From the NCBI RefSeq assembly GCF_003290025.1, contig NZ_QNHG01000004.1, forward strand, positions 49,687 to 90,991: a stretch of DNA of 41,305 nucleotides, in the 5' to 3' direction. Below are positions 4,136 to 39,355 of the stretch, one piece after another; position 1 is the stretch's first letter, and each line of letters begins with the position of its first letter. The translations under genes and the position numbers were made by a program. This stretch comes from Pseudogemmobacter bohemicus. GTDB lineage: Bacteria > Pseudomonadota > Alphaproteobacteria > Rhodobacterales > Rhodobacteraceae. The notes beneath the pieces are model-generated. The model was not told the origin of the DNA and ran no database searches. It was given only the letters and a program-made list of their open reading frames with translations.

Positions 4136-4172
4136 CCCCCGTGTCTTTCTGCCTCGCATGCGAGGGTTTCGC

Positions 4173-6367: not shown

Positions 6368-6483
6368 CTATACGTCCTTTTCCTTCACAATATCACGGTC
6401 TCAATTGGGCATCCCGGCCGGAATTTCAAGCCGGAGCGATGCCGCAGCCCCACACCTTTGCGGGAAATTCAGCTTTCGCCGCG

Positions 6484-11828: not shown

Positions 11829-11832
11829 GCCG

Positions 11833-12087: not shown

Positions 12088-12088
12088 C

Positions 12089-12373: not shown

Positions 12374-12394
12374 CCCTGGCGACGGAACATCAAC

Positions 12395-12430
12395 AAAGGC
12401 GCGCGAGGGAAACCCCGCGCGCCTTTTCAT
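12395..12430. terminator. Strong hairpin ending the purA group and facing the permease
   Basis: The stem AAAGGCGCGCG / CGCGCGCCTTT (12395-12426), extended by GGG/CCC around a short loop, is followed by TTCATTT on the plus strand. On the minus strand it lies just after the stop of the permease gene and may terminate that transcript as well, but with a weaker T run. Confidence 0.8.
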
Positions 12431-12439
12431 TTCAGCCGC

Positions 12440-14044: not shown

Positions 14045-14050
14045 GCTCAA

Positions 14051-14565: not shown

Positions 14566-14645
14566 CCCAGTCGATCTGATACCCAGTCGATCTGATACCC
14601 AGTCGATCTGATACCCAGCCGATCTGCTGCCCTGCCGATCTGCGG
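14566..14645. repeat. Tandem 16-bp repeat, five copies
   Basis: Unit CCCAGTCGATCTGATA, three perfect copies (14566-14613) followed by two diverged copies (CCCAGCCGATCTGCTG and CCCTGCCGATCTGCGG, 14614-14645). It is non-coding, lying between the permease promoter region and the terminator of the downstream minus-strand gene. Since 16 is not a multiple of three, the repeat shows the same peptide pattern in all frames, which argues against coding. Confidence 0.85.
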
Positions 14646-14694
14646 ATCTCCCGCGCGCGACGCCATCGCTCCGCCGGGTCGGCACCGCGCAAGC

Positions 14695-14729
14695 AAAAGG
14701 GCCGGTCCCCTTCCGGAACCGGCCCTTTT
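14695..14729 (-). terminator. Intrinsic terminator after the 1127-aa gene
   Basis: The stem AAAAGGGCCGGT / ACCGGCCCTTTT (12 bp) with an 11-base loop. On the minus strand it is followed by a T-rich run (TTTTGCTT), and it is about 28 bp beyond the stop codon of the minus-strand gene ending at 14757. Confidence 0.8.
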
Positions 14730-14756
14730 GATCATGGGTTAATGCCCGCGCGGAGT

Positions 14757-17700: not shown

Positions 17701-18140
17701 GTTTCCTCGGCGACCGGAACCTCAGCGACCGGAGCCACCGGCGGCCGGTGTTTTTTTACCTTTGCAACCGGCGCCTCGCTTTCGCGGGCAGGCTCAACGG
17801 GGGCGGGCTCAACGGGAGCCTCAGCAACCGGGGCGGCCACAGCAGCGGCCGGCGCAGGCGCAGCGGCAGATTCGCCCTCTTCCTCATCGCCCGCACGCAG
17901 CACCAGGCGGTTATCAGTGATCCTCGCCTCGACCCGGCGCTGGATCTCCCGCTCGGCGATCCGGTGCAGCATCGCGGCATCGGGCTGCGGCGGCTCGGCA
18001 CCGAAATAGCGATCCTCTGCCGCGAGATCCCGGAAATATTCGGCAATAGCCCGCATCGTGTTAAAGGGCTCGTCAAAGCCCTCGAGCGTGCAGCTGAAGG
18101 TCCCATAAGAGACGGTCAGGATCTTGCTGGCATCATTCAT
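14757..18140 (-). CDS. Large low-complexity acidic protein with conserved ends, function unknown
   Basis: Protein of 1127 aa. Residues 1 to about 95 ([20 protein letters not shown] and onward, containing [20 protein letters not shown]) and the last ~95 residues ([20 protein letters not shown] through a [20 protein letters not shown] segment) look folded. The ~900 residues between are Ala/Glu/Asp/Pro-rich and almost certainly disordered. No signal peptide or membrane segment. From memory, proteins of this architecture occur across Rhodobacterales and are sometimes labelled chemotaxis protein CheA, but none of the CheA domains (Hpt, dimerisation, GHKL, CheW) is present. The ATG at 18140 has GAGG nine bases upstream; longer starts lack one. 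It is divergent from the thiamine pyrophosphokinase gene. Confidence 0.85.
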
Positions 18141-18187
18141 CGACGCGGACCTCATACTTTCCATGGAGGAAACATTGCCGGTGCTTT

Positions 18188-18266
18188 GTTCGAATCCATG
18201 GACAGACCGGGGTAATTTGAAGGATTGATTGTGTCCGCCCATCATGGGCTTTGCCTTAATTCGAAC
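18188..18266. promoter_or_regulatory. Inverted GTTCGAAT boxes in a divergent promoter region
   Basis: GTTCGAAT (18188-18195) and its exact complement ATTCGAAC (18259-18266) sit 63 bp apart in the 135-bp gap between two divergent genes. They could be operator half-sites or part of two promoters. This is weak evidence based on the dyad alone. Confidence 0.25.
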
Positions 18267-18275
18267 AGTATCCGC

Positions 18276-18968
18276 ATGAAATCACCTCTTGTTCAATGCC
18301 CTGATCAATGCCCTGGACTTCACTTCTGCGATGGGATCACCCTGGTCGGCGGCGGCCCGGCGAGTGCGCGCGATCTGGCGCTGGCGCTGCGCCTGGCGCC
18401 GGTGGCAGTGGCGGCGGATGGTGGTGCGGATCGGTTGATTGCGGCGGGGATCACCCCCACTGCGGTGATCGGAGACCTCGATTCGATCTCGTCCGCAGCG
18501 CTGGCGCGGGTGCCCTCCGAAAGGCTGCACCGCATCGCAGAGCAGGATTCCACCGATTTCGACAAGGCGCTCAGGGCGCTGACGGCGCCGGTGATCCTGG
18601 GGCTGGGCTTTACCGGCGCGCGGATGGATCACGGGCTGGCGGTTCTGAACAGCCTCGTGCGCCATGCAGAGAAGCCCTGCCTTGTTCTGGGGCCGAAAGA
18701 CGTGGCCTTCGCGCTGCCGGCGGGTGAGACACGGCTGCGGCTCGGCCCCGGGGACCGGGTCTCACTGTTTCCCTTTGCCCGCGTGACGGGCACGAGCCTG
18801 GGGCTGGAATGGCCGCTGGACGGCCATGTCTTTGCCCCGGACGGCTTTATCGCCACCTCGAACCGGGCTTCGGCGGCGGATGTGGTGCTGCGGGTCGATC
18901 AGCCGGGCATGGTGGCGATCCTGCCCCGCAACCGGCTGCGTCAGGCGATCCGGGCGGTCTCGCGCTGA
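18276..18968 (+). CDS. Thiamine pyrophosphokinase
   Basis: Protein of 230 aa transferring pyrophosphate from ATP to thiamine to give thiamine diphosphate. Family motifs are visible: the LVGGGP loop, [17 protein letters not shown] and [11 protein letters not shown] (metal and ATP-binding Asp residues), then the C-terminal thiamine-binding beta domain. Length fits the family. The start is uncertain: there is no clear ribosome site, and the ATG at 18276 is the first reasonable one before the conserved part. Its 3' end overlaps the convergent exporter gene by 28 bp. Confidence 0.9.
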
Positions 18969-19924
18969 GCGGCGCGCTGGCGGATGGCGATCCGCTCGCG
19001 ATGCACGAGGTAGAGGCCCGAGGCGATGATGATGGCGATGCCGGTAAAGCTGAGCCGGTTCGGCAGGTCGTGGAACACGAGGTAGCCAAGGATCACCGCG
19101 ATGACGATCTCGAAATAATGCAGCGGGCCCAGCGTGGCCGAGGGCGCATAGCCCAGAGCCATGGTCATACACATATGGCTGATGCAGGCCCAGAAGCCGA
19201 CCCCGATCAGCCAGAGCCAGGTGATGCCTTCGGGCATGACAAAGGCCAGTTGCGGCAGCGGCCCGTTCCACATCACCATGAGCACCGGCAGGCAGATCAC
19301 CACCCCCGCCCAGCTGGTATGGAACTGCATGGCGACCGGATGCATGAAGGATGACATGCCGCGCGTGACCAGCATGTAAAGTGCGAAACCGAAGGCGGTG
19401 CCCAAGGGCCAGAGCGCCATCAGCCCGAACACCGTCAGCGAAGGCTGGATGATCAGCAGCGAACCGGCAAAGCCGACGATACAGGCGGCGATCCGGCGCG
19501 GGCCGACCTCATCGCCGAAAATCCAGTGGCCGAGGATCAACAGGATAAAGGGCTCCAGAAAGGCCACGGCGAGGGCATCGGCGATGGGCATCACCGTCAA
19601 ACCCGAGACGAAGGAAAAGGTCGAAAACGCCAGCAGAATGGCGCGCAGGAAGACAAGACCAAGCGCGCGGGCGCCAAGCACCGGCGACAGGCCCATCAGC
19701 AGGATCACCGGCGCCATCATCAGCCCCTGGACGATGAACCGTGCCGCCGTGATCCAGCCGACCGGGATCCCGGCCTGGGCCGCCAGTTTCGACGACACAT
19801 CCAAAAGCGGCGCCAGGGTGCAAAAGGCCAGCATCAGGATAATGCCGGGCAGGATGCGGTCGGTGGCGCGGACGGAGTGCGATGTCACGGGCGCGGATTG
19901 GGAAAGGGCCTTGGTCATGCCCAT
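18941..19924 (-). CDS. EamA-family (DMT) exporter
   Basis: Protein of 327 aa with about ten hydrophobic segments in two five-helix EamA repeats (about 25-165 and 175-310), the layout of drug/metabolite transporters such as RarD, YdcZ-like and S-adenosylmethionine carriers. The substrate is unknown. Two ATGs (19924 and 19918) compete without a strong ribosome site; the longer is given. Transcribed toward thiamine pyrophosphokinase, with a 28-bp tail-to-tail overlap. Confidence 0.85.
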   Translation of the reverse strand: MGMTKALSQSAPVTSHSVRATDRILPGIILMLAFCTLAPLLDVSSKLAAQAGIPVGWITAARFIVQGLMMAPVILLMGLSPVLGARALGLVFLRAILLAFSTFSFVSGLTVMPIADALAVAFLEPFILLILGHWIFGDEVGPRRIAACIVGFAGSLLIIQPSLTVFGLMALWPLGTAFGFALYMLVTRGMSSFMHPVAMQFHTSWAGVVICLPVLMVMWNGPLPQLAFVMPEGITWLWLIGVGFWACISHMCMTMALGYAPSATLGPLHYFEIVIAVILGYLVFHDLPNRLSFTGIAIIIASGLYLVHRERIAIRQRAAQRETARIA

Positions 19925-20310
19925 GGCTAGCCCGCGCGGATCGCAGCTGCCATGCTGAAAACGACAGCAGGCTGCCCGATTTCGCGGCAATGATTCTGGG
20001 GGCCGGTTCAGCGGCCATCCCGGATCTGCCCGGCCATTGCACCACGCCGGCCCGGCCCGGCCCGGCCCGGGACGAGACGGGCCAGTCAGCCCAGTCACCA
20101 GCGCTACAAAGCGGACCGGCCGGATCAGACGATCAGCGGCATCGCGCTTGCAAGGCCCAGGGGCCGGCGGTGCAAACCGGGCGGACCGGATCAGACCAGG
20201 AGCGGCCCGGTTCTCGCAAGGCCTTGCTGAACAGGGTGAAAACCGGGTGGGCCGGGCTGGCCCGCAGCCTCCCGATCCGCCAGGAATTACCCGCCCGCCC
20301 GGGCGGCGGC
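19925..20310. other. GC-rich gene-free stretch with short repeats
   Basis: About 390 bp without a credible gene. It holds a (CCCGG)n run near 20049-20070 and two related blocks around CGGACCGG.CGGATCAGA and GGCGGACCGGATCAGACC (near 20112-20200). Open frames through it are GC-driven. The promoter of the exporter gene should lie near its left side. Confidence 0.4.
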
Positions 20311-20856
20311 TCAGCCGAAATGCCGGATGCCGCTTTCCGTCACCATCACATCCAGCCGCTGATCGGTGCTGTCGATCGGCACTTCGGCCATTTCCTGGGC
20401 GTCAAAGGCAAAGCCCACGGCGAGCGTCGGGCGCCTTGTGCGCAGCATCTCCAGCGTGCGGTCATAAAAGCCGCCGCCATAGCCCAGCCGGTAGCCGCGC
20501 GCGTCAAAGGCCAGCATGGGGACGATGACGACTTCCGGCTCAAGCCAGGCGCCTTCGGCCGGGATCAGCGCCTTGAAGGCACCCTCGACCAGCGCTGCGC
20601 CGGGTGTCCATTCGCGAAATTGCAGCGGCATGTCGCGGCCCGGGATCACCGGCAGCCCCACCGGCCCCTGATGTGCCGCCATGGCAGGCAAAGGGTCGAT
20701 CTCGGTCCGGAAGGGCATGTAACCCGAAAGGACCTTGCCGGCATGGGCGGCAAGGAAATCCGCCAGCAGTGCAGCCGCCTGCCCCTGCCCTTTCGCGAAG
20801 GCCTCTGCCCGGGCCGCCGTTGCCGCCGCGCGCGCCGCCGCCTTGATCTCTTTCAT
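20311..20856 (-). CDS. 5-formyltetrahydrofolate cyclo-ligase
   Basis: Protein of 181 aa converting 5-formyl-THF to 5,10-methenyl-THF with ATP. The hallmark LGYGGGFYDR motif (residues about 123-132) is present, with the basic N-terminal helix and the conserved SGYMPFRTEIDP segment. Length is typical. Its ATG overlaps the mgtE stop by four bases (ATGA), so the two genes are cotranscribed and translationally coupled. No ssrS (6S RNA) sequence, often adjacent to this gene, is recognised here. Confidence 0.95.
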   Translation of the reverse strand: MKEIKAAARAAATAARAEAFAKGQGQAAALLADFLAAHAGKVLSGYMPFRTEIDPLPAMAAHQGPVGLPVIPGRDMPLQFREWTPGAALVEGAFKALIPAEGAWLEPEVVIVPMLAFDARGYRLGYGGGFYDRTLEMLRTRRPTLAVGFAFDAQEMAEVPIDSTDQRLDVMVTESGIRHFG

Positions 20857-22223
20857 AGCAATATCACCGTCGCGAGGCCCAGAAACGCAAAGAAACCGAT
20901 CACATCGGTCATTGTCATCACGAATGTGCCCGAGGCAAGCGCCGGGTCAAAGCCCAGCCGCTCCAGCCCCAGCGGCACCAGGATTCCCGCCAGCGCGGCC
21001 ACCAGCAGGTTGATGACCATCGCCATCGCCAGCACCAGCCCCAGCCAGGGCATGCCCAGCACCAGCCACCCCGCCAGCCCCATCAGACAGGCAAAGACCG
21101 CGCCATTGATCAGCCCTGCCAGCGCCTCGCGCCGGATCACCCGCATCGCATTCGAGACCGTCAGATCCCGGGTCGCCAGCGCCCTGACCGCAACCGTCAG
21201 CGCCTGCGTCCCCGCAATCCCCCCCATCGAGGCGATGATCGGCATCAGCGCCGCCAGGATCACGATCTGGCCGATGGTGCTTTCAAACTGCCCGATCACC
21301 AGCGCCGAGATATTCGCCGTGATCAGATTTATGAAAAGCCAGGGGATGCGGCTTTTCACCGTCACCAGCACCCCGTCCTGGATCGAGGCCTCATCCGACA
21401 CGCCCGCGAGGCGCAGCATGTCCTCTTCATGCTCTTCATCCAGCACATTCATCGCATCGTCGATGGTGATGACACCCACGAGCCGCCCGTCTTCATCCAC
21501 CACCGGGCAGGAGATCAGGTGATACTGGTTGAAGTAATAGGCGACATCGGCCTCCTCATCGGTGGCCTTCACCGTGCGGAAACTGTCCTCGGTGATATCT
21601 TTCAGCTTCGCGTCGCGCGCGGCCGAGAGGATGCGGCCCAGGGTGACATAGCCCGTCGGGCGCATCCTCGGATCGGCAAGGATCACATGGTAGAACTGAT
21701 CGGGCAGCCATTCGGCGCCGCGCAGGAAATCAATCGTCTCGCCCACATCCCAGTGTTCGGGCGCGACCACCACCTCTCGCTGCATCAGGCGCCCGGCGGA
21801 ATATTCCGGATAGGACATCGCCTGTTCGACCGCGACACGGTCGGCATCTTCCAGCGCATCAAGGATCTTTTCCTGCGCCGGCTCGTCGAGGTCTTCGAGA
21901 ATATCGACCACGTCATCGGTGTCGAGTTCACGGACCGCCTCGGCCACCACCTCATCGGGCAGCGCTTCAATGACCTCTTCCCGGATCGACTCGTCGATCT
22001 CGGACAGCACATTGCCGTCGATGCCACCATGCCAGAGCGCCAGCAGCCCACTGCGGTCGGATGAGGAAATCTGTTCCAGAAGGTCGGCGATATCGGCGGC
22101 GTGCAGCGGATCCAGCAGCGCGTCCAGCCGCTCGGTATCCTTCGCCTCAACGGCGTCGAGCACCTGATCCAGGCGTTCGGCGGCCATTTGCTCCTCGTCG
22201 CGCTCTTCGACCGTTTCCTTCAT
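20853..22223 (-). CDS. mgtE: Magnesium transporter MgtE
   Basis: Protein of 456 aa, homodimeric Mg2+ channel of the inner membrane. Order: acidic superhelical N-domain (about 10-140, with LHAADIADLLEQ), two CBS domains (about 145-270, with VGVITIDDAMNVL) and five C-terminal membrane helices (about 290-456) including the pore-lining ALMPIIASMGGIAGTQAL segment. In known MgtE the N and CBS domains close the pore when cytoplasmic Mg2+ is high. Cotranscribed with the cyclo-ligase gene and divergent from guaD. Confidence 0.95.
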   Translation of the reverse strand: MKETVEERDEEQMAAERLDQVLDAVEAKDTERLDALLDPLHAADIADLLEQISSSDRSGLLALWHGGIDGNVLSEIDESIREEVIEALPDEVVAEAVRELDTDDVVDILEDLDEPAQEKILDALEDADRVAVEQAMSYPEYSAGRLMQREVVVAPEHWDVGETIDFLRGAEWLPDQFYHVILADPRMRPTGYVTLGRILSAARDAKLKDITEDSFRTVKATDEEADVAYYFNQYHLISCPVVDEDGRLVGVITIDDAMNVLDEEHEEDMLRLAGVSDEASIQDGVLVTVKSRIPWLFINLITANISALVIGQFESTIGQIVILAALMPIIASMGGIAGTQALTVAVRALATRDLTVSNAMRVIRREALAGLINGAVFACLMGLAGWLVLGMPWLGLVLAMAMVINLLVAALAGILVPLGLERLGFDPALASGTFVMTMTDVIGFFAFLGLATVILL

Positions 22224-24353: not shown

Positions 24354-26030
24354 ATGGGAATTATAGTGTCTCAACCAGACGCGCGTCGTGCAAAAAAAGA
24401 CCTTGGTGCGTTCTATACTCATCAAGCGCTGTCAGACTTAATTTGCAAATGGGTGATCCAATCACCCGACGAGAGCGTGCTCGAGCCGAGTTTCGGAGGC
24501 TGCGGATTCATAAGATCAGTCAGGGACAGGCTCAGCGCAATAAGAGAAAATGCGTCTCTGAGTAAACTATACGGCTGCGACATAGATCAAAGCGCATTTG
24601 CACACCTATCTGAGATATTTGAACAACCCGTGGATCTCTGCCGATTCCATGATGGCGACTTCCTAGCACAGGACTTTCCACAATCTTGGCCAAGAGAATT
24701 CGACGTTGTGGTAGGTAACCCCCCCTATCTGGCATATCAAAAGCTAGACGTACAACGTAGAGAGGATGTCCTTTCTCAACTTAAAACTTCAGGCCTCAAT
24801 CTTGACCGTCGCGCAAGCCTTTGGGCTTACTTTGTCGCCCTTAGTGTTCTTTACACGGCTAAAGGGGGGCGAAATGCATGGGTTCTGCCTAGTAGCTTTC
24901 TATACGCAAACTACTCCAAAGCGCTGCGAGTATTTCTTTCGCAAAGCTTTACTAGATGTTGCGCATTCGAACTGAAGGAACGTCAGTTCCTCCTAGAGGG
25001 TACTGAGGAGAAGTCCATTGTACTTTTGTGCGAAGATAGAAAATCTCTTGCGAATGATAGCCGCACCATCGATATCCCATTGGTCCGGTGCGATGGTGTC
25101 AAGGATGTTGACATAGCTATCAAGAGCTGGAGCCTTCGCCTGCCAAGAAGATCTGCACATTGCGGATCTTCAGTTTTTGATAGCCTCTCCGTAGGGCAAC
25201 AAAGGATCTTCCAGCGCATTGAATCAAATCATAATGCGCGGTCGCTTGGCGACTATCTGTCCGTCAGAATCGGTCTTGTTACAGGTAATAATCGCTTCTT
25301 TCTCTTGAATGAAGAAGGCAGGCTAAAAGCAGCTCTGCGCAAAGACGAACTGTGTGAAGTTCTCCCGAGATTTCAATTCGCCTCGGGAGTAAGTTTCTCC
25401 ACCGACGACCACGACGCGCTTATTTCTGGTGGAGGTAAGGGCTACTTGGTAAGTGTTTCCGATAGTACTGCGAGTTCATCGGAGATGAAGAATTATCTGG
25501 AGATGTACCCCGACGAAGATATCGCCGCATGCTCAACGTTTAAGAAAAGAGCAATCTGGAGCAATGTCGAGGACGGCTCACCTCCAGATGCGTTCCTTCC
25601 GGTCATGCAGCACCATGGGCCGCGTTTAGTGCTCAATCTCAGTGGCGTCAATTGCACGAATTCGGTATACAGAGCATATTTTAAAGATAACCAGACTTTA
25701 GCAGAACGGAAGCTTCTGTCACTTTCACTTCTCTCAACATTTTCTCAGGTTTCTTCGGAAATGTGCGGGCGGTCGTATGGATCCGGCGCCTTGAAGCACG
25801 AGCCTCGGGAGGCAGAGAGGATCAAGGTATTGATGCCGCGAATTGGCCAGAGAGCAGTAAATTTGGCATTCTCGCAGGTAGACCGAATTTTAAGAGGCGG
25901 TAACTTGGTGGAGGCGCGACAGTATGTCGACAGAATACTTCTGAAAGCACTCGGGGGAGTTGACGTCGGTTCGACGGCAGCAATATTGGATTCGAGTCTA
26001 CAAAAAATGAAAGCCCACCGCCACAGATAG
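24354..26030 (+). CDS. N6-adenine DNA methyltransferase (Eco57I/type IIG-like)
   Basis: Protein of 558 aa. Motif X LGAFYT (17-22), motif I LEPSFGGCGF (43-52), motif II CDID (75-78) and catalytic motif IV NPPY (122-125) are in gamma-class order. A C-terminal half beginning about residue 290 contains SVRIGLVTGNNRFFLL, the usual entry to the target-recognition domain of Eco57I-like enzymes. No nuclease motif is in the chain, so it modifies DNA and would need a separate restriction partner. It converges with the three-gene signalling operon. The ATG at 24354 has AGGGA very close; a GTG at 24366 with better spacing (GGGA-N6) is an alternative start. GC is clearly lower than in core genes. Confidence 0.85.
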   Translation: MGIIVSQPDARRAKKDLGAFYTHQALSDLICKWVIQSPDESVLEPSFGGCGFIRSVRDRLSAIRENASLSKLYGCDIDQSAFAHLSEIFEQPVDLCRFHDGDFLAQDFPQSWPREFDVVVGNPPYLAYQKLDVQRREDVLSQLKTSGLNLDRRASLWAYFVALSVLYTAKGGRNAWVLPSSFLYANYSKALRVFLSQSFTRCCAFELKERQFLLEGTEEKSIVLLCEDRKSLANDSRTIDIPLVRCDGVKDVDIAIKSWSLRLPRRSAHCGSSVFDSLSVGQQRIFQRIESNHNARSLGDYLSVRIGLVTGNNRFFLLNEEGRLKAALRKDELCEVLPRFQFASGVSFSTDDHDALISGGGKGYLVSVSDSTASSSEMKNYLEMYPDEDIAACSTFKKRAIWSNVEDGSPPDAFLPVMQHHGPRLVLNLSGVNCTNSVYRAYFKDNQTLAERKLLSLSLLSTFSQVSSEMCGRSYGSGALKHEPREAERIKVLMPRIGQRAVNLAFSQVDRILRGGNLVEARQYVDRILLKALGGVDVGSTAAILDSSLQKMKAHRHR

Positions 26031-26202: not shown

Positions 26203-26889
26203 CTAAATCCAGTGGTCATTCCAGCAGCTTCGAAGAAACGTTAAGTCCCTTCCCTTTGCAGGGTCACTGAAATACTGCTGCATTCGCAACATTAGAGGAT
26301 TGAAGCAAAGGCCTTCACTAGTTTTTACATGTTTCAGAATTGTGCGATCTTCGCGCAATATTTCTTTCCATCTGTCTTCAAAAAAGTTTGCCGCCACGAT
26401 CTCAAGCAAGAGTACCGTATCAAGGGGGAAGGCCGCCCATCGAGGAACCTTAAATGAAGCATCTAGGCTTCTATCCTCATGGTGGTGCCCACCATACTGC
26501 ATGTGCAACCTTGGACCAGGCTGACCAATGTTTCCCACGTCGAAGTGCCATCTCGGGCATTCCCTATCCCGATCCTTGTACTCTAAGACAAGAACCGTCA
26601 CCCAATCTTGGTAGGGAAACTCTTCCTGCGTCCTCACACAAATCTTCTCCACCATAATCAGTGGATGAAAACTACTTCCATCACGCCGATCTTTGCACTC
26701 ATTGAACTTTATGGGCTCGCCTTTAGATATACTATACTGCCATGCTGGGCTTGTTTTCGCTTGCCTTAGCTGGGCAACGGCAGGTGCAACAGCGTTGCAA
26801 CTCTCCCCATCTAGAATCCCTGCCTCAACATACTTCCATACCGATGACTCAATCGCTGAGGCCATGTCACGACCGTGAATTATCGGCAT
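26203..26889 (-). CDS. Unknown protein with HxD and HxQxGG motifs, third gene of the kinase operon
   Basis: Protein of 228 aa, cytoplasmic, no signal or membrane segment. The middle (about 95-135) has strands followed by WHFD (114-117) and LHMQYGG (128-134), then HHH. The His/Asp/Gln spacing suggests a metal or nucleotide site. After it comes VPRWAAFPLDTVLLLEIVAANFF, a helix ending in the pattern of a small family I recall only vaguely from other bacteria (WHFH.D...HLQFGG...PR...P...). I do not assign a function. Its ATG overlaps the receiver gene's stop by one base (TAATG), so its output is tied to the kinase and receiver, and it is a natural candidate for the effector. Confidence 0.8.
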   Translation of the reverse strand: MPIIHGRDMASAIESSVWKYVEAGILDGESCNAVAPAVAQLRQAKTSPAWQYSISKGEPIKFNECKDRRDGSSFHPLIMVEKICVRTQEEFPYQDWVTVLVLEYKDRDRECPRWHFDVGNIGQPGPRLHMQYGGHHHEDRSLDASFKVPRWAAFPLDTVLLLEIVAANFFEDRWKEILREDRTILKHVKTSEGLCFNPLMLRMQQYFSDPAKGRDLTFLRSCWNDHWI

Positions 26890-27995
26890 TATCGCGCAAT
26901 CCTTCCGGCAACGACATCCGCAGCGATTTCCAAATCACTTTGATCTATAGCGAGGTGCGGACTTCTGTCCAATTCTCCTCGAACATAGCAGTCAAAGCAT
27001 ACTCTCTTTTTTTCGGCATAAGGCAGAAGATATTTATCATACAGAGAGAGTGAGTTTCTCCTCTCTGAAGGAGATCCGCATACGGTGCACGCAAATGCAA
27101 ATAGCTCATCAGAGCTATTACTCCATTTCGAGACAGCGGGCTTTAGATCCAAGCCAAGGGCCTTTGAAATTACTTTAGCTCGGTCTGCGCCTTTTATGGA
27201 CGTCAAAGGCGATCCGATTTCTCGATCCGCCCATGCTTCGAGCCTATGTCTCCACAAACGCGTCCATCCATCGCTGAACACCCCAGAGTAACCCATCCCC
27301 AAAGCGACTAGCTTCTCCACCGCAGCTGAAACTTGATTAGGCTCGTTCTCAATCCCTAATCTAGCTGAGATGTCGCGAGGCGAAAGCAGCGGTCCAGGTC
27401 GTTCGATGAGTTGCCTCAAGACTAATCGCGCAACAACATGTGTCACTGAGTCCGCGTTTAGAACATCGATTGCAAACCCGTGCAGTGGCATTGTTTCAAA
27501 TTCATCCACGCTCAAAGCAAGTAAGGAGGCCGCACCACCCTGCCCGAGCAGACAAGCAGCTATATCCTTGTAACCTTTCGCTAAACCTCGCATCTGTCGG
27601 TGGCATTCGGCACGATAACCGCGATCACTCAAGCGTCCCTTCATATACTTCTGGTCAAAAAGATCGTGAGATGTCTTATCTATACTGAAGATCCGCTTGA
27701 TATTCTCTTCGGTGGAGACCAGAATAATAGGAAAATCCAATTCTGGGCGTTCCAAGAGTGACTCTCTCAAAATTTGCGCGAGTGCACCTGCTTTATAGTT
27801 GTTCTCCTCAAGATTCTCGTCGTCTAGCCTAAAGTCGAGCGCGACAATACAAGGAGCCTTCTCCAGCAGGGCGTCACGTAACTTCATAGGCTCAACTGGT
27901 TCAAACTGATCGTCGATCATCATTCCATGCTGGCTGAGGAGCCGCGAAATCCTTGTCCTGTCTTCAGCATTATCATCTATAAAGAATCCAAGCAT
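26889..27995 (-). CDS. Receiver-domain protein with C-terminal Cys4 zinc ribbon
   Basis: Protein of 368 aa. The first ~120 residues form a CheY-like receiver. All canonical positions are present: Asp7 and Asp8, phospho-acceptor Asp54 in VALDFRL, Ser94/Thr95 in ILVST and Lys116 in FDQKYM. The usual Pro after Lys is missing, and the sequence around Asp54 is followed by an acidic insertion (DDENLEEN). A middle winged-helix-like stretch (about 185-265, with RPGPLLSPRDISARLGI and GVFSDGWTRLWRH) follows. Then comes a Cys4 ribbon (Cys303, Cys306, Cys333, Cys336). It starts one base after the kinase stop and overlaps the next gene by one base, so it is the cognate partner of the kinase. It is not a standard OmpR or NarL regulator. 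Confidence 0.85.
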   Translation of the reverse strand: MLGFFIDDNAEDRTRISRLLSQHGMMIDDQFEPVEPMKLRDALLEKAPCIVALDFRLDDENLEENNYKAGALAQILRESLLERPELDFPIILVSTEENIKRIFSIDKTSHDLFDQKYMKGRLSDRGYRAECHRQMRGLAKGYKDIAACLLGQGGAASLLALSVDEFETMPLHGFAIDVLNADSVTHVVARLVLRQLIERPGPLLSPRDISARLGIENEPNQVSAAVEKLVALGMGYSGVFSDGWTRLWRHRLEAWADREIGSPLTSIKGADRAKVISKALGLDLKPAVSKWSNSSDELFAFACTVCGSPSERRNSLSLYDKYLLPYAEKKRVCFDCYVRGELDRSPHLAIDQSDLEIAADVVAGRIAR

Positions 27996-27996
27996 T

Positions 27997-30264
27997 CTAA
28001 CTCAACTTCTTAAAGGTTACTTCTATTCTTGTGCAATATCCGCTTGAAGCATGACTGCACACTCTCGCCTCGCCCCCATACGCAGATGCGATATCGCTGA
28101 CAATTTTCAATCCAAGGCCAGTCCCAATGCCTGAGATACTATCGCCATCAGCCTCGGTGGTGGTGAAGAAGGCATCGAATATTCTTGCTCCAACCTTCGG
28201 ATCGATCCCAGCTCCATTATCCTCGAACGACAACACGATAAAGCCACTAATTTCACGAGCTTGCACCTTAATTCTAGGAATAATCCCGCGACACTTTTCC
28301 ATAGCCTTGACTGAATTGGTAAGAAAATTGAAGAGAATTGAATCGATCTCAGAGGCATGCATTTGGGGAGTTCTGAGGTCGAGCGGGACAACATCCACAT
28401 CAAACTCAATGTGCCGTTTTTGAAGATAGGATTGAAATTGCGCGAAGAATCTTCTCACCGCCGCATCAATATGGACCTCAGTTAGCTGTCTCGAGCGCGT
28501 TTTAGAGACGAGACTTTCGACATAACTTCCTAAGTCAAACATTCGATCAGTAGCAGACTTGAGTGATAGGATATCCTTCTCGATTTGGCCCCGCTCCAAT
28601 TCATCGCTCAGAAGCTCAGCATCAAGTTCCGCAATAGCCAAGCTATTATCTACGGCGTTGGTCGCACTTTTAATCTCATGGCCGAACAAACTAATCGATA
28701 TCCCAAGCGATGCCAGAATCCTGAGCATATTCTCGTACTCTATAGAAGTCTCGAGCTTCTCGTCCACTTGGTTCTCGAAATCCTTTTGTCTTTTGTAGAG
28801 GTCTTCAAGGAAGGTTTCGGGCACGGCGGACTCTTTTATGTCACCGCTGGATTCGTCCTGACCCTCTACCGAACGCTTCCCACCGCGTTCGCTTTCCAGC
28901 ATCTCAAGGATGACCTCGGATGGTCTTCTAGTATATCTCGGTTCGAAACCTTGCTGCGACGCAGTTTCCTTCCGCTTACGGGAAGATGCTATTCTCAATG
29001 CGGCCCATTCCACACACCTTCGACTGAACACTCTCAGATCTTCGAAGGCTTCATTTTCTACGAAGCCCTCACGCGAACTTGTTTCTTCCAGAAGTGGATT
29101 GTCTTCTCCAACTTCCACATGTCCGAAAAAGTTAAAATTATTCGCCGGAACAAGGAGATTCCTACGTGCGGAATCGTATGAAAGCGTTAGCCAGTCGTCA
29201 TAAGGCTCACCATAAGGCAATACGCGGAAGCCGTTGCGGTAGACACGTATGCCACCGTACTTATGCCCCATCTCGTGGGCCATTTTGACTGAGATCCCTG
29301 ACATATACTGCGAGAGATAGATAAAGTATGAGGTCTCGAGTTCTACAGGGCCGACAAGAAGATACTTGTTTTCCGAATGATGCGTTTCATCTATTCCAAG
29401 CTTCTCTGACACCACTCGAAAAGTCGCATTTCCATTCTGATCGATCGTTCCATAAATTTTAGCAATCGCGCTAGTAAGAAAGCTCTCTTCTATATTGAGG
29501 TTAATTCTGTGCTGCCTGCTGGAAACGCCGTTGATGAGAACATTGAAGTCACCCGACACCCGTTCATTTGCCTTATGCTGAAACGGAGGCTGCAAGAAGA
29601 GGACCGACTTCCAAACACGGGAAATCGCCGTTTCTGTCCATCTATCTCGCAAATCATAAATCTTGAGCGTGGTGCCGGACTGATTCAGATCCTTATCGAA
29701 AACCTCCACCTCATGCCAGACTTGGCTTAAATTCACACCTGCCCGAAAGTCCTCATCCCAATGAAAAAGGACACGATGGCCTTGCACTTTACCCGATTGT
29801 GATGTTTCGAGTGTCAGTGACTTCCCTAGGCGCTGAACAGCGAACCTTCCAATGCCTTTCTTTCCCGCTCGTCGTCTCCCATAGATTTTTGACAGCGGGT
29901 TATCACCTTTGTCGTTTGTAGAGAGGCGCATCCACGACTTCCGGATCGTTTCGATATCCATTCCGAGCCCGTCATCGGAAATGATTAGCTGCCCTCCGGG
30001 CTGGTCGAAATCCAAAAACTGGATACTGACTTCTTTCGCGTCGGCATCGTATGCGTTCTTCACCAGTTCCGAGAGTGCGGTTTCCTGCTTTCCGACGAGC
30101 TCAAGTCCTAGGCGGTTAATGTGCTGGGCATCGACGGTAAATCGCACAGATCCCTCTGTAGCGTCCAGAAGAGCGTCCGCCAATTCGCCGATCCGCTTAG
30201 GGTCAGGCATATCCTTGTTTAGTTCAGCGGACAGCGCCCGTTGGATCTCATTGGATTGTGTCAA
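27997..30264 (-). CDS. Double-GHKL protein: MORC/MutL-like ATPase joined to a histidine kinase
   Basis: Protein of 755 aa. N-terminal module: a Bergerat ATP site with ELVKNAYDAD (Asn70), DDGLGM (97-102) and GKKGIGRFA (135-142), plus a following S5-like domain, as in MORC/MutL/Hsp90-type ATPases. Middle: a polar linker and coiled coil (about 430-520). C-terminal module: His529 in a HisKA-like GHEIK motif, N-box NFLTNSVKAM, DNGAGI (682-687) and GTGLGLK (714-720). No membrane segment, so it senses something in the cytoplasm. Prokaryotic MORC-like ATPases have been reported near restriction-modification genes; here a methyltransferase gene converges on the operon. A TTG at 30264 with GGGGA six bases upstream is chosen; a GTG at 30303 would lie upstream of the promoter's start site. 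Confidence 0.85.
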   Translation of the reverse strand: MTQSNEIQRALSAELNKDMPDPKRIGELADALLDATEGSVRFTVDAQHINRLGLELVGKQETALSELVKNAYDADAKEVSIQFLDFDQPGGQLIISDDGLGMDIETIRKSWMRLSTNDKGDNPLSKIYGRRRAGKKGIGRFAVQRLGKSLTLETSQSGKVQGHRVLFHWDEDFRAGVNLSQVWHEVEVFDKDLNQSGTTLKIYDLRDRWTETAISRVWKSVLFLQPPFQHKANERVSGDFNVLINGVSSRQHRINLNIEESFLTSAIAKIYGTIDQNGNATFRVVSEKLGIDETHHSENKYLLVGPVELETSYFIYLSQYMSGISVKMAHEMGHKYGGIRVYRNGFRVLPYGEPYDDWLTLSYDSARRNLLVPANNFNFFGHVEVGEDNPLLEETSSREGFVENEAFEDLRVFSRRCVEWAALRIASSRKRKETASQQGFEPRYTRRPSEVILEMLESERGGKRSVEGQDESSGDIKESAVPETFLEDLYKRQKDFENQVDEKLETSIEYENMLRILASLGISISLFGHEIKSATNAVDNSLAIAELDAELLSDELERGQIEKDILSLKSATDRMFDLGSYVESLVSKTRSRQLTEVHIDAAVRRFFAQFQSYLQKRHIEFDVDVVPLDLRTPQMHASEIDSILFNFLTNSVKAMEKCRGIIPRIKVQAREISGFIVLSFEDNGAGIDPKVGARIFDAFFTTTEADGDSISGIGTGLGLKIVSDIASAYGGEARVCSHASSGYCTRIEVTFKKLS

Positions 30265-30285
30265 GGCAAATCCCCATTTTGACCC

Positions 30286-30314
30286 AAAATATGCGGATCC
30301 CACTTAGTTTTCAA
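30286..30314 (-). promoter_or_regulatory. Sigma70-like promoter of the kinase operon
   Basis: On the minus strand, TTGAAA (30314-30309) and TATTTT (30291-30286) are separated by 17 bases. The expected start of transcription, about seven bases further, lies some 15 bases before the TTG start codon at 30264, leaving room for the GGGGA ribosome site and little else. This supports the shorter protein. An imperfect dyad (GTTGACTG-GCT-CAGTCGAC, near 30372-30390) lies about 60 bp upstream and could bind a regulator. Confidence 0.5.
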
Positions 30315-31061: not shown

Positions 31062-32474
31062 CTAACGTTTTTTCCAGAACTGGATCGCCGGACCTTCAAA
31101 ATCCGCGAGCGCTTGAGCGACATTCACGCCGCCTAGGATTTCGGTACTTGATGCCAGGGGATGGAAGCGCGGGGCTGTTGTTGTCCAGTTGCCTTCCGCG
31201 TCGCAATGGTGATGCGCGGCCCCAGGTATGAGGTGTTCCGCAAGCGGCATGACGGCGCGCGGGTTATGATAGACGTTGAGGCCTTCTACCCAGCTCTCAT
31301 GGTACCCTTTGGCGTTCACAATCGCCTTGAAGAGCAGCGGGTTCGTCGCTTCGGGGTCGGGGTCTACGACAGTGCCAGTGCGCGTCATCAAAACGTCGCC
31401 CGCGTCGAACCCGGCCAGAATCCCCATTCGATTGAATTTTGAGATCGTGCCCGCTGTGGTGGAGATAACGGCGCTGACATGTTCCGAGTCCGGAATGTCA
31501 AAGAAGCCAGATGGCACCACCTTCTCCCCCCAACGGTGCTCAATGATCTTTACGGGCTTTGCTACGACTTTTCCTTGCTCGTCGCGCGCCTCCTCAAAGG
31601 AGAACCCGTAGAGATATCGCGCGAGTGCGGATCGGGTATGGATCATGGAGCCGGGCGATGAAAAATCCGCGATTGCAAACACCAGCGGTACACCAGCGAT
31701 CTGCTCCTTCTCCCAGTATTTCTTCCCTAGCTTGCTGAACAATGGGCTGCCGAACTTGATCGGCATATACTCCCGCAGATACGCTTCCATCTGTTCCTCG
31801 GTCTCAACGGGCGGTGGCGGAACGATATCAGCGCCTCGCCGGGTCGGTCCAACCGTCACCGCTTCGATGGCGATGGAGCCGAACAAGCTTTTGCCGATGA
31901 AGTCGGGCACAGCGTGCGTCGATTCCAAGGAAAACCCGAGTTCTATGAGCGTCGCAAAAAGGTAAAGTTCCCAAATCCGCTGGTCGAAAGCGGTGGACTG
32001 GAACTGTTCTACGAAGTTTCCATCGAGATCTTCGTGCCACCGCATCATGGGTTCGATTATACCTCGGGCAGGAAAGAACCCAATTTCGGAAGCGACCTGC
32101 TGAAAGTCTGGGTGCAAAACTTCTGTTGGGTGTACCGGAGTGAAGAAATCGACCGGCTCACCCTTTTCATCTCCTTGGCGATGAAACTCGTCCGGCTCAT
32201 CGTGCAAATTGGTCATCAGTTCCGCCAATGCGTCGTGCGCGAGTTCCGGGCTCTCGAGGAAATCGGTCATAGAAGTCCACCGGAAGCGCAGTTTCGCGTC
32301 GCGGCCAAAGGCCATTCCTGCGAAGTCACGGTCTGTCCGGTCCCTGACGAGCAGGCCGAGAATGCTCCCATCCTCTGCCTCGTAGTAAGCCAGTTCCTCA
32401 CCAGTCAGCGCCGCCCTCGGGTGCCGGGCATAGCCGGCAATTGCGTTGAAGCGGATTTCAGAAATTTCTCTCAA
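31062..32474 (-). CDS. Uncharacterised protein with degenerate PD-(D/E)XK-like motif
   Basis: Protein of 470 aa. In the middle, QRIWELYLFATLIELGF (Glu169) is followed by VPDFIG (Asp191) and IAIEAVTV (Glu204): the helix, strand-D, strand-E order of PD-(D/E)XK nucleases, but the usual Lys two residues after Glu is Val. It may be an inactive fold, a variant site, or a chance resemblance. The N-terminal ~100 residues and the C-terminal ~200 (with HVSAVISTTAGTISKFNRMG) are not recognised. No signal or membrane segments. The start is a TTG with AAAGGA six bases upstream. It stands alone between repeat copies A and B. Confidence 0.65.
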   Translation of the reverse strand: MREISEIRFNAIAGYARHPRAALTGEELAYYEAEDGSILGLLVRDRTDRDFAGMAFGRDAKLRFRWTSMTDFLESPELAHDALAELMTNLHDEPDEFHRQGDEKGEPVDFFTPVHPTEVLHPDFQQVASEIGFFPARGIIEPMMRWHEDLDGNFVEQFQSTAFDQRIWELYLFATLIELGFSLESTHAVPDFIGKSLFGSIAIEAVTVGPTRRGADIVPPPPVETEEQMEAYLREYMPIKFGSPLFSKLGKKYWEKEQIAGVPLVFAIADFSSPGSMIHTRSALARYLYGFSFEEARDEQGKVVAKPVKIIEHRWGEKVVPSGFFDIPDSEHVSAVISTTAGTISKFNRMGILAGFDAGDVLMTRTGTVVDPDPEATNPLLFKAIVNAKGYHESWVEGLNVYHNPRAVMPLAEHLIPGAAHHHCDAEGNWTTTAPRFHPLASSTEILGGVNVAQALADFEGPAIQFWKKR

Positions 32475-33014
32475 AGCAAATCCTTTAGCGCTGCCATTGA
32501 TACTCCCGCAACGTGTCAGATCGAATGGGGGGTTGCCAATGTCGGCTTTGGACCGGCCTTCTGGTCGCAGTAGAGGGCTTCGCCTCAACTGAGTAGGTCC
32601 GTTCCCGCGCCATCGGAGAGCTGCCCGAGGTAACGTGGGCAGCGGCATTGCGCCTGCAACGAACAGCTGGAAGGTCGGCATCGCAGACGCTCCGAATCTC
32701 GAATTGCTGCGCCCCGTTTCCAACGGTCGGTTCGGGGAATGCTGCCGCGCAGCATCGGCGAGGCTCGACCGGCAGCTATGGGCCGCGTCATGCTCCAGCC
32801 TAGCCTGTCGTAGGAGCAGGTCAGGATGAAGGCACCTAGCCTGCGGGTCGCTGTGCCGCAGCATGTTTCTCGGACCTTGCAGCGACTGTTCGGCATCAGC
32901 GAGAGCGTGCGCGCCTGCCCAGCCCAAAGCGCTCATGGACCAACGGATACTCCCGTCGAGCGATATCGCTCCAGAAGACTTGCCGACAACACCCGACATC
33001 GGCCTAGCAGACTT
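32475..33014. other. Gene-free island spacer with repeat copy B
   Basis: About 540 bp without a gene. Copy B of the island repeat covers roughly 32700-32930: it shares ACCGGCAGCTATGGGCCG (near 32768-32785) with copy C and a CTGTGCCGCAGCATGTTTCT block (near 32851-32870) with copy A. The minus-strand frame of the 470-aa gene stays open through it, but there is no ribosome site and no recognisable protein. Confidence 0.5.
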
Positions 33015-34232
33015 TCATTCATATCTGACTGTGTCATCCCACCGAATCTCTTCCCTGTATTGTTCATGGGCTCTGCGTATCTGACTTCCTTTGGCCATCT
33101 CTAAAAACGGCAGCCACTCACCAAGGACAACGTCCTCCTTGAATACATTATTGTGGCTTAATAGTGCGCTTTGGATCTGTTGAAAGCGCTGATGCTCCAT
33201 TGAAAACCCGGTGCAGCCGGCATCGCCGAACAGCGGGTCTTTTGCGAGCATCGGCACCCCACCATTGGGCAGAAACTTCACCCACTCGTCATTAGTAGAA
33301 ATTGTATTTAGAATGCGTCCGACCACCGCATTGTCCAATAGAGGTTTCCAATTATAGTTCTTATTGAGGATCGATCCGCAAAGGATCACGGCGTCGAATT
33401 TCTCCGTAATATCGTTTGCCTCCGTCAGATATCGCCCAATTACGTAGGTGCCGAACGAATGCGCGATGACTGAAATGGGCCCAGTGTACTGACGCCGAAC
33501 CTCGATCAGCCAATCCCGGAAGCCTTCGACGACACCGGCCTTCTCCGCCTCAGATCTTAGGATTGAGACTTCGCGGTAACCATAGATGTATGGCGCGATA
33601 GCCCAACCTGACGCGCTCGCCGACAGGCAAAGGTGTGGAAGCCAGCCTTCGGCATGCGTACGAATTCCGTGGATGGGTATGATAACGCCCTTGGGCCTCT
33701 GCTGTTGGGACCAGCGTCGCCCCAGATAAGAGACTTTCACTATCTCGAGGTCAGGTGACGATTCCTTAGGACGGTAAAATGTTTGAACAGTTGAGTGCAG
33801 CTTTATCTGGACAAGCCCATGTGGCACTTGGGAACGCGTGGTGGCCAGCAGTTCAAGATAGGCAGCCACGATAGTGTCCTGATCCTCCGCCAAAAGTTGT
33901 ACATCGAGCGTGACGCCGTTGACATCGTAGCGCTCGTTGGACTTGGGAATCTGATCGGAACGCGCAAATAGGATTACGATGTCGATGTCGGATGGAAACT
34001 CTTTGCTGGATATGAATGAACCTCCTACGACTATTGATCTTGCCCCAGCATCTTCCGCCCATTCCACAATGTCTGAAAAGGGCTTGTAAAAGTCGCTGCG
34101 TGCCGCCTCTTCGTAGCGTCCGATCTTTCGTTTGCTGTCGCTGCAAAATGTCTGCAAAAATTCGTCTAGCGATATCACATGTGTACCGGGCACCAGCAGA
34201 CCCTCATCAAACGTCAATCCCTTATTTGACAA
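33015..34232 (-). CDS. Nucleotidyltransferase fused to alpha/beta-hydrolase
   Basis: Protein of 405 aa. N-terminal module (about 50-170): GGS at 70-72, then DID with Asp82 and Asp84, and a third Asp110 in TLDVQLL, the catalytic triad order of DNA polymerase beta-type nucleotidyltransferases (DUF6932-like). C-terminal module (about 180-405): HGIRTH (from 188) as oxyanion region and AHSFGTY with nucleophile Ser259, then candidate acid (Asp315 or Asp337) and His (347 or 364), the plan of an alpha/beta-hydrolase or lipase. No signal or membrane segment. In known CBASS systems, nucleotidyltransferases activate separate lipases; one chain with both is unusual. The start is TTG with a perfect AAGGAGG six to seven bases upstream. 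Confidence 0.8.
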   Translation of the reverse strand: MSNKGLTFDEGLLVPGTHVISLDEFLQTFCSDSKRKIGRYEEAARSDFYKPFSDIVEWAEDAGARSIVVGGSFISSKEFPSDIDIVILFARSDQIPKSNERYDVNGVTLDVQLLAEDQDTIVAAYLELLATTRSQVPHGLVQIKLHSTVQTFYRPKESSPDLEIVKVSYLGRRWSQQQRPKGVIIPIHGIRTHAEGWLPHLCLSASASGWAIAPYIYGYREVSILRSEAEKAGVVEGFRDWLIEVRRQYTGPISVIAHSFGTYVIGRYLTEANDITEKFDAVILCGSILNKNYNWKPLLDNAVVGRILNTISTNDEWVKFLPNGGVPMLAKDPLFGDAGCTGFSMEHQRFQQIQSALLSHNNVFKEDVVLGEWLPFLEMAKGSQIRRAHEQYREEIRWDDTVRYE

Positions 34233-37387: not shown

Positions 37388-38368
37388 ATGTCGATTGATC
37401 TCTCCCGCGTGCTGAACGAGGCCCGCATCCCCGAGCTGCCCTCGCCCTATTTCGGCAAGGTGCGCGACTGCTATGATCTGCCGGCCACGGCGGAATTTCC
37501 GGACGGTCGGCGGATCCTGATCTCGTCGGACCGGATCTCGGCCTTTGACCGCATTCTTGCCGCGATCCCGTGGAAGGGCCAGGTCCTGACCCAGGTGGCG
37601 CGCTGGTGGTTCGACCGCACTGCGGATATCTGCCCCAATCATGTCACCGCCTATCCCGACCCCAATGTGGTGATCGGCCGTCGCGTCACCATCCTGCCGG
37701 TCGAGGTCGTGGTGCGTGGCTATCTGGCCGGCACCACCTCCACCTCGGTGCTGACGCAATACAAGGCCGGCCTGCGCGAGATGTATGGCCACCGCCTGCC
37801 CGACGGGCTGAGGGATAACGAAGCCCTGCCCCATGCCATCATCACCCCCACCTCGAAAGCCTTTGACGGCGGCCATGACGAGCCGCTGACGGCATCCGAT
37901 ATCGTCTCACAGGGGTTGCTGACCAAAGCCCAATGGGAGGAAGTGTCGGACAAGGCGCTGAAACTCTTTGCTTTCGGCCAGAAACTCGCGGCAGAGCGCG
38001 GGCTGATCCTGGTCGATACCAAATATGAATTCGGGCTGGACGATCAGGGCCGCATCCTGCTGGCCGACGAGATCCATACCCCGGATTCCAGCCGTTACTG
38101 GATCGCGGATGGCTATGCCGCGGCGCTGGAGACCGGCAGCCGGCCGCCCTCTTTCGACAAGGATGTGATCCGGGCCTGGGTGGCGGCGCGCTGCGACCCC
38201 TATAAGGATCCGGTGCCGGACATCCCGGAAGAGATGATCGCAAAGACCTCCGCCGTCTATATCGCGGCCTATGAGCGCATCACCGGCGAGACCTTCCGCC
38301 CCGACAGCTCGGGCGAGACGCCGCTGGAGCGGGTAAGGGCAAATCTGGCACCCTATTTCACCGCCTGA
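37388..38368 (+). CDS. purC: SAICAR synthase (phosphoribosylaminoimidazolesuccinocarboxamide synthase)
   Basis: Protein of 326 aa joining CAIR and aspartate with ATP in purine synthesis. Motifs: [40 protein letters not shown] and [14 protein letters not shown]. It is the longer form (about 300 aa, as in yeast Ade1) and not the ~240-aa E. coli form. The ATG has GAGGAAGG upstream. Divergent from infA. Confidence 0.97.
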
Positions 38369-38419
38369 CAGCGGGATACTGTTTGCGCTAACAAAGGGCG
38401 GAAAAATCGGGAGGCTGCG

Positions 38420-39355
38420 ATGATTCTCTGCTGTGGTGAGGCGCTGATCGACATGCTGCCGAGGGTCTCGACGGCGGGCGAGCCCTGTTTCGCGCCCTAT
38501 GCCGGCGGCGCGGTGTTCAACACCGCCATCGCGCTCGGACGGCTGGGCACGCCGGTCGGGTTCTTCTCGGGCGTCTCGACCGATATGCTGGGCGAGATCC
38601 TTGCCGATACGCTGGCGGCGTCAAATGTCGATACCGGCCTGCTGGCGCGGTCTGCGCGGCCGACCACGGTGGCTTTTGTCAAGCTGACCAATGGCCAGGC
38701 AAGCTATGCCTTTTACGATGAGGCCACGGCTGGCCGGATGCTGGCGCCCGGTGATCTGCCGGTGCTGCCCGATACGGTAGAGGCGCTGTTTTTCGGCGGC
38801 ATCTCGCTGGTCAATGACCCGGCAGCCTCAAGCTATGAGGCGCTGCTTGCCCGCGAATCCGGGCGGCGGCTGATTATGATCGACCCGAATATCCGCCCGG
38901 GCTTCATCGCCGGTAACGAGGACGCCTACCGCGCCCGCATCACCCGGATGATCGCACAAAGCGATATCGTGAAGCTCTCGGATGAGGATCTGCACTGGCT
39001 GGAGGGCCGGGGTGACACCGCCGCGCTGGCCGCCGGCCTGCTGGCAAAGGGGCCGGCGCTGGTGCTGATCACTGAAGGCGCGGAGGGCGCCCGCGCCTTT
39101 GCGCATGGGACCAGCCGCCACCGCCCGGCGGGGCGGGTCGATGTGGTCGATACGGTCGGCGCCGGCGATACGTTCAATGCGGGCTTCCTTGCCGGTCTCG
39201 CCCGCCAGGGCGCGCTGAGCCGGGCCGGCCTTGCGGCGCTGAGCGGCAGCGAGATTGACGCCTGCCTTGACCTTGGCATCCGCGCCGCCGGCGTCACCGT
39301 CTCGCGCGCGGGTGCCAACCCGCCCTGGGTGCATGAGCTGGAACCCGCATCGTGA
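38420..39355 (+). CDS. PfkB-family carbohydrate kinase (fructokinase-like)
   Basis: Protein of 311 aa, ribokinase fold. Starts [11 protein letters not shown] (fructokinase-like), with [15 protein letters not shown] sugar-site segment and the C-terminal signature [13 protein letters not shown] holding the catalytic Asp. GGAG is nine bases before the ATG. The substrate may be fructose; sequence alone does not prove it. Its stop overlaps the dtd GTG start by four bases (GTGA). Confidence 0.9.

Follow-up and report, generated by a model that had tools for sequence, protein, structure and literature searches.

Detocs is a defense system in which a kinase and a receiver bring about cell shutdown, and its receiver is fused to a phosphorylase-type effector. 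Soluble kinases with HATPase_c_3, HEF_HK, and HATPase_c domains were surveyed together with their Response_reg_2 partners in 2021 (91.6% linked, 644 regions); according to the available text, these pairs are enriched near restriction-modification (R-M) genes, and the authors speculate on a role in R-M control (PMC8011034). MORC-like ATPases have been described in R-M operons (PMC2292703, published in 2008), and in VcSduA, a GHKL-type Shedu protein, the GHKL ATPase is reported to be needed in phage restriction, the E27A variant being inactive (PMC12137116, published in 2025). The combination Helicase + DUF2290 is reported to inhibit phage T7 (PMC9122126, published in 2022), and DUF2290 is given no function in the available text of PMC10952713, PMC9122126, and PMC12278908. 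In the accessible part of a BREX survey (PMC12839542), a histidine kinase appears once, fused to Schlafen RNases. In the main text of a phosphorothioation survey (PMC10853773), the terms GHKL, MORC, DUF4007, two-component, receiver, and histidine kinase do not occur, and under these terms the genes described below are unmentioned there.

The window analyzed here, i.e., the whole stretch of 41,305 nucleotides of Pseudogemmobacter bohemicus (contig NZ_QNHG01000004.1), contained three successive open reading frames (ORFs) on the minus strand (hereafter referred to as the trio), encoding a kinase (30303-27997, 768 aa), a receiver (27995-26889, 368 aa), and a third protein (C3; 26889-26203, 228 aa), the latter being a distant relative of DUF2290 and a candidate effector. 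As reported in a preliminary description of this locus, the kinase and receiver genes were separated by one base, and the receiver and C3 genes overlapped by one base. The kinase harbored an N-terminal MORC-like HATPase_c_3 domain (residues 74-174, 29782..30084, minus strand; Pfam PF13589, E 2.8e-22), a region containing His542, and a C-terminal HATPase_c domain (residues 652-762, 28018..28350, minus strand; Pfam PF02518, E 7.3e-25), which confirmed the two Bergerat ATPase domains recognized earlier; no obvious membrane segment was found, the highest 19-residue Kyte-Doolittle mean being 1.33. His542, located in an FGHE motif (codon 28678..28680, minus strand), is the predicted phosphoacceptor of the kinase by analogy with HEF_HK proteins (PMC8011034). 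The receiver comprised a REC domain, helices with a probable winged helix, and a Cys-rich end, with Asp54 as its predicted phosphoacceptor (codon 27834..27836, minus strand). Phosphotransfer from the kinase to the receiver is predicted. The true start of the kinase may be a TTG near 30264 instead of the GTG at 30303, because its close relative L013 begins at the corresponding residue. The promoter previously placed at 30314-30286 did not stand: it is a 9-of-12 match, the stretch has five such sites against a mean of 5.4 in shuffles, and it was not counted as evidence because such sites are no more frequent than in shuffles.

The trio resembled the HEF_HK pairs in its HATPase_c_3 domain, conserved His-Glu, HATPase_c domain, adjacent receiver with a conserved Asp, and nearby R-M genes, whereas it differed from them in the length of the trio receivers (about 330-410 aa) and in the C3 gene that follows. 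In addition, HEF_HK (PF19191) was not matched by the window kinase at E values up to 1, and Response_reg_2 (PF19192) was not matched by the window receiver or by 77 trio receivers at E 0.05; a Response_reg_2 scan of five genomes gave no match anywhere, controls included, and is therefore uninformative. None of the libraries scanned, including Pfam, PADLOC, and NCBIfam, names the trio system, in line with the preliminary description, but kinase-receiver pairs of this general kind had already been published (PMC8011034). The long-receiver branch, the DUF2290-like protein, and a switch from methylation to phosphorothioation were not found in the open-access literature searched.

The window kinase shared an N-terminal GHKL ATPase, intact motifs, and an R-M-like neighborhood with MORC/paraMORC proteins. 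Unlike these, it continued into a histidine kinase and was paired with a receiver, which the available text of PMC2292703 never mentions. VcSduA is similar in that a GHKL ATPase gates a phage-restricting effector, but it is one protein with a fused PD-(D/E)XK nuclease and no phosphorelay. As in Detocs, a cytoplasmic kinase and a receiver are proposed here to drive defense, whereas C3 is encoded separately and belongs to another family, and a DNA-modification gene lies beside the trio. Membership in Detocs was dropped, since no phosphorylase-type domain was detected in the window receiver or in 77 trio receivers. The window shared with classical type II R-M systems the presence of a dedicated methyltransferase. 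Assignment of the kinase as a BbrUII/HgiDII restriction enzyme was rejected, with NCBIfam NF050001 scoring 79.4 bits over residues 54-230 against a cut-off of 550; the PADLOC REase_II matches of the kinase were likewise confined to the shared ATPase part.

Relatives were gathered by tblastn in plasmids, by kinase searches, and then by profile searches with kinase alignments. The single receiver relative found in plasmids by tblastn was from Hymenobacter sp. PAMC 26628, in which kinase, receiver, C3, and an annotated N-6 DNA methylase occurred in succession. Kinase searches in plasmids retrieved a trio followed by a GIY-YIG gene in Rhizobium sp. TH2 and a trio in the archaeon Halomicrobium sp. 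LC1Hm. The C3 gene of the latter (L007, 9385-10194, plus strand) is unannotated in the record. The profile search yielded 79 viral-contig loci and the best 80 genome loci. Searched individually, C3 gave nothing at 1e-5 by tblastn in plasmids (one chance match, E 3), and the window receiver alone gave no match in viral contigs.

For a census of the trio, HMMs of the kinase, receiver, C3, and methyltransferase were run over all ORFs, with a C3 cut-off of E <1e-5, and the window and its own genome (L001) were counted separately. C3 was thereby detected in 81 further loci (3 plasmid, 17 viral-contig, and 61 genome loci). The expectation that the three genes recur together was borne out, as a receiver (≥300 aa) and a kinase adjoined C3 on the same strand in all 81, a figure that is biased because the loci were mostly collected by kinase similarity. 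Two tests were less biased: the C3 profile gave two matches in 398 genomes of the window's phylum, namely the window's genome and one more trio, and C3 was present exactly once in each of the 22 trio genomes searched (L142 is absent from this count), at coordinates agreeing with those of the trio's C3. Of the 170 kinase loci, 81 were the trios, 15 had <2.2 kb of sequence after the kinase gene, and 74 lacked C3 despite sufficient room; a receiver was recognized in 15 of these 74, of which 12 were short (209-229 aa) and three were longer (L006, L042, and L064).

Trios were found in Bacteroidota, Pseudomonadota, Verrucomicrobiota, Planctomycetota, Actinomycetota, Campylobacterota, and other taxa, and also in the archaea Halomicrobium, Halostagnicola, and Methanoperedens. 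Many of the genomes were metagenome bins, and the 82 trios (window included) do not represent 82 independent events, because five pairs of C3 proteins were at least 80% identical, two of these pairs being identical. The window receiver was found in one of 100 related genomes, the window's own, so that the island is not a heritage of the lineage. By eye, seven viral-contig loci (L017-L020, L023, L040, and L041) resembled P2-type prophage ends with an integrase; P2-type hotspots are known to carry defense genes (PMC9122126). An ordinary regulator in a housekeeping setting was dropped as a candidate.

The eight annotated non-trio loci inspected contained an MBL-fold gene in three (L003, L005, and L012), an HNH gene in two (L004 and L011), and neither in the other three (L006, L008, and L010). 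Because the MBL-fold and HNH genes occupy the position after the receiver beside short-receiver kinases, these loci suggest that third parts are exchangeable among related kinases. In Clavibacter (L006), the kinase fell inside the trio branch and was accompanied by a long receiver, with no C3.

Residue conservation was counted over 79-80 distinct sequences per family (79 trio kinases, 80 receivers, and 80 C3 proteins, L143 being excluded from the C3 alignment for its short ORF). In the kinase, E79, N83, D110, G112, G114, and H542 were present in 79/79 sequences and E543 in 77/79. In the receiver, D8 and D54 were conserved in 80/80, and position 7 was D or E in 80/80. The canonical receiver residues listed in the preliminary description were thus correct for D7, D8, and D54, while T95 and K116 had been misassigned: the conserved residues are S94 (S or T in 76/80, against T at position 95 in 21/80) and K119 (K in 68/80, against K at position 116 in 18/80). 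The zinc-ribbon output described for the receiver also stood in part, since a C-terminal CxxC with a second Cys/His pair was found in a minority of receivers (13/80) and C303 alone was general (79/80); a plain zinc-ribbon output was therefore dropped for the receivers as a whole.

The AlphaFold model of the receiver had a pLDDT of 93, and the REC fold was recovered by Foldseek and VIA-align. The helix order of the model and a sub-threshold match to MarR_2 (E 0.0015) indicate that the receiver probably contains a winged helix. MarR_2 was matched by 1/77 trio receivers, and the classical Response_reg family by 6/77, in a scan with 17 families listed at E 0.05. The receiver may bind DNA, a property just as compatible with a transcription factor.

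The WHFD and LHMQYGG motifs noted in C3 were present and formed the most conserved part of the family, the core motif (HxD, P, HxQ, and PR) spanning residues 115-150 (26440..26547, minus strand). Among 80 C3 proteins, H129 was found in 80, D117, P126, and R150 each in 79, and H115 in 76, whereas Q131 was found in 49, with H at that position in 15. The conserved residues of the three proteins indicate that phosphorelay chemistry has been kept and that C3 has a conserved polar center.

None of Pfam, PADLOC, and NCBIfam gave a family match for the window C3 at E values up to 1. Among 76 C3 proteins, two weakly matched the Pfam family DUF2290 (best E 0.038), and two matched the PADLOC profile DUF2290 (best E 7.3e-4). 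C3 proteins were then compared with ten DUF2290 sequences, three from genomes and seven from plasmids; all seven plasmid genes lay directly after a gene for a protein with an ATP-binding domain. Alignment of the C3 family with the ten sequences by hhalign gave a probability of 90.3% (E 1.7e-7, 201 columns), and with only the three sequences 54% (E 1.3e-4). Controls gave E 0.4 and 0.006 for reversed profiles and 0.84 for the receiver family, so that E-values of single comparisons are optimistic, yet the match between C3 and DUF2290 is well clear of the controls. By profile comparison, C3 is a distant homologue of DUF2290 and not a member of that family. Similar to Helicase + DUF2290 (PMC9122126), a DUF2290-type protein directly follows an ATPase gene set in the trio; unlike in that pair, the genes before C3 encode a receiver and then a kinase, with no helicase, and DNA-modification genes accompany the trio. 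A scan of the viral contigs with the DUF2290 profile gave no relative. The AlphaFold model of C3 was confident (pLDDT 90.2). As structural searches with this model gave no solved match and family scans gave no nuclease signature or motif, C3 is perhaps not the effector.

Beside the trio in the window, a gene encoding an Eco57I-type DNA methyltransferase (558 aa, 24354-26030) was identified on the plus strand, convergent with the trio (PADLOC MTase_II PDLC03267, E 4e-74; Pfam N6_Mtase and Eco57I). This protein was 38% identical to the methyltransferase beside the trio of Rhizobium sp. TH2. The three-gene unit proposed previously was retained as such, but the methyltransferase gene, which lies outside it, also belongs to the module. 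On the other side, the trio adjoined a gene for the anti-phage protein PD-T7-1 (31062-32999, minus strand; PADLOC PDLC04073, E 4.2e-181), the start of which is probably further in because the match covers residues 177-622 of the longest ORF. The trio thus lies beside defense genes, which supports the earlier reading of it as a probable defense system. No restriction endonuclease or nuclease family was detected among the scanned neighboring proteins of the window. Upstream of PD-T7-1, a DUF6932 protein was encoded (33015-34232, minus strand; weak PADLOC candidate PDC-M63A, E 2.6e-7). The island was flanked by housekeeping genes, which encoded SAICAR synthetase and a PfkB kinase on one side (37388-39355, plus strand); those on the other side (8935-22223) encoded MgtE, EamA, and serine dehydratase.

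Modification genes were found beside 77 of the 82 trios, window included, often within a few tens of bases; 66 trios had a methyltransferase and 11 had the Ssp phosphorothioation genes. In 60 of the 81 loci, a methyltransferase no more than 500 bp away had been detected by a first automatic pass, and the remainder were labeled from ORF lists. Five labels (L007, L103, L140, L147, and L158) were set by hand, because ORFs overlapped or were truncated or because gaps measured 0.8-1 kb, and that of L100 was set by motif only; the methyltransferase profile, which was built from trio neighbors, was weak on the downstream Bacteroidota type (E 1e-4 to 1e-15 for many). The methyltransferase gene was located downstream on the same strand in 33 of the 66 trios, upstream in 22, convergent in eight, divergent in two, and was of the C5 type in one. 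Neither mark was seen in five trios (L013 and L016, both of which end at a contig edge, and L132, L144, and L154). The trio and its mark are a recurrent mobile module of four parts, i.e., mark, kinase, receiver, and DUF2290-like protein.

The Ssp genes were identified by PADLOC in L129 (SspC, E 0; SspD, E 5.3e-91) and L145 (SspC, E 0; SspB, E 3.1e-95; SspA, E 1.5e-161, with DndA equally good), and by phmmer in the remaining nine loci. SspC and SspD were present in all 11 Ssp loci and SspB in 10. With SspABCD phosphorothioation systems, which also include SspE and other restriction parts, the trio has in common the marking genes next to it at these 11 loci; in the window, by contrast, the mark is methylation. 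Other possible restriction parts were present in seven of the 11, namely a PbeC-like gene (L121, L131, and L148) or a gene for an 800-aa GHKL protein. The latter protein, with a weak HATPase_c_3 match and no PADLOC match, was encoded in L127, L129, L137, and L145 (7458-9848 in L145).

The trio is probably a defense system directed at unmarked invaders that leaves the cell's own, marked DNA untouched, because this mobile trio adjoins DNA-marking enzymes in many unrelated microbes. In the proposed mechanism, the methyltransferase, or elsewhere the Ssp phosphorothioation genes, would mark the cell's own DNA. The MORC-like ATPase of the kinase would serve as a clamp that, driven by ATP, closes on DNA lacking the mark, and closure would switch on the C-terminal histidine kinase, so that phosphate would pass from His542 to Asp54 of the receiver. 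The receiver, by a changed interface or through its probable winged helix, would then release or load C3, the putative effector, which would most likely act on nucleic acid. The gating step of the ATPase is suggested by analogy with VcSduA (PMC12137116); the direction of sensing, the effector role of C3, and the antiviral role of the whole are likewise proposals. We consider the chances about even that the trio and its mark form such a phosphorelay-gated restriction module. The adjacency of the three genes in 81/81 C3 loci, the two less biased C3 tests, the conserved residues, the modification genes beside 77/82 trios, the nesting of the Ssp-linked kinases in one group, the relation of C3 to DUF2290, PD-T7-1 next door, and the VcSduA precedent support this module, while Clavibacter L006 without C3, the lack of a nuclease signature or structural match for C3, the possible DNA binding of the receiver, the collection of loci mostly by kinase similarity, and the other restriction parts in several loci (TH2 and 7/11 Ssp loci) count against it.

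The module reading has two main rivals: transcriptional control by a two-component system, and cutting by a separate nuclease that is unlinked or variable. In the former, the winged helix of the receiver would bind a promoter, phosphorylation would tune the methyltransferase or Ssp genes, and C3 would be an accessory, e.g., a co-regulator. The combination of a REC domain and a probable winged helix is typical of transcription factors, and control of R-M genes is likewise what the authors of the 2021 survey speculate on in its available text (PMC8011034); the winged helix is, however, weakly supported by MarR_2 matches (1/77), C3 was kept in 81/81 C3 loci although the modification genes vary in position, strand, and chemistry, and a regulator would not be expected to have a partner resembling DUF2290, which is known elsewhere from a pair active against phage, and we regard this rival as rather unlikely. 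No more probable in our view is that the kinase-receiver pair and C3 serve for loading or licensing and that cutting falls to a separate nuclease. This would account for the GIY-YIG gene beside the TH2 trio, for the PbeC-like or large GHKL genes in 7/11 Ssp loci, and for the absence of a nuclease motif from C3 in family scans, whereas the near-invariant H, D, H, and R residues of C3 and the lack of any nuclease family among the scanned neighbors in the window argue against it. Abortive infection, in which the kinase would sense infection directly rather than the mark, C3 would be a toxin, and the methyltransferase a frequent island neighbor, is improbable: kinase-receiver defense by cell shutdown is known from Detocs, and the trio occurs in a defense island in the window and in viral contigs, but modification genes beside 77/82 trios, often within a few tens of bases, would seem to exceed what island company suggests.

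If the module reading is correct, the published kinase-receiver pairs beside R-M genes would gain a concrete architecture and a candidate effector. Further, recognition of unmarked DNA would be coupled to a reversible switch, i.e., one open to dephosphorylation, instead of to a bare nuclease, which is testable. Through the link between C3 and DUF2290, an uncharacterized part of an anti-T7 system demonstrated by experiment, findings on one of the two proteins would bear on the other. The sensing of altered DNA or infection put forward in the preliminary description would more likely take the form of reading a missing self mark, because the trio is linked to two different DNA marks. The pairing of two different marks with one trio also suggests that what the trio reads is not methyl groups but an outcome shared by both marks, e.g., a site left unmarked or a modification complex that has stalled. 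A joint reading, in which the sensor-effector core of a restriction system run by a histidine-aspartate phosphorelay (MORC-like kinase, receiver, and DUF2290-like effector) is indifferent to the chemistry of the mark, working with methylation in some hosts and with phosphorothioation in others, and C3 and DUF2290 form one effector superfamily across unrelated defense architectures, is tentative, and we place it somewhat below even chances.

A quick kinase tree was constructed with 98 rows (the 82 trios, the Clavibacter kinase, and 15 other kinases), in which the outgroup branches were long. The 82 trios and the Clavibacter kinase were separated from the 15 other kinases (SH-aLRT 100). All 11 kinases linked to Ssp genes were from Bacteroidota and were placed in one group of 13 (SH-aLRT 100), the others being L144 and L154, and this group was nested among methyltransferase-linked kinases, so that the tree needs one change of mark. 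Because the Ssp-linked kinases form one nested group, the simplest reading of the tree would be that phosphorothioation replaced methylation once while the trio was retained. Such an exchange within one branch would provide a natural experiment for asking which feature the ATPase recognizes.

Two trios had additional neighbors. The Sphingopyxis trio without a seen methyltransferase (L132, 4791-9775, minus strand) adjoined DruA-like (DUF4338) and SspF-like genes, and the Hymenobacter plasmid trio (L002) adjoined a gene with a Piwi domain and a large DNA methyltransferase gene (2791-8428, minus strand).
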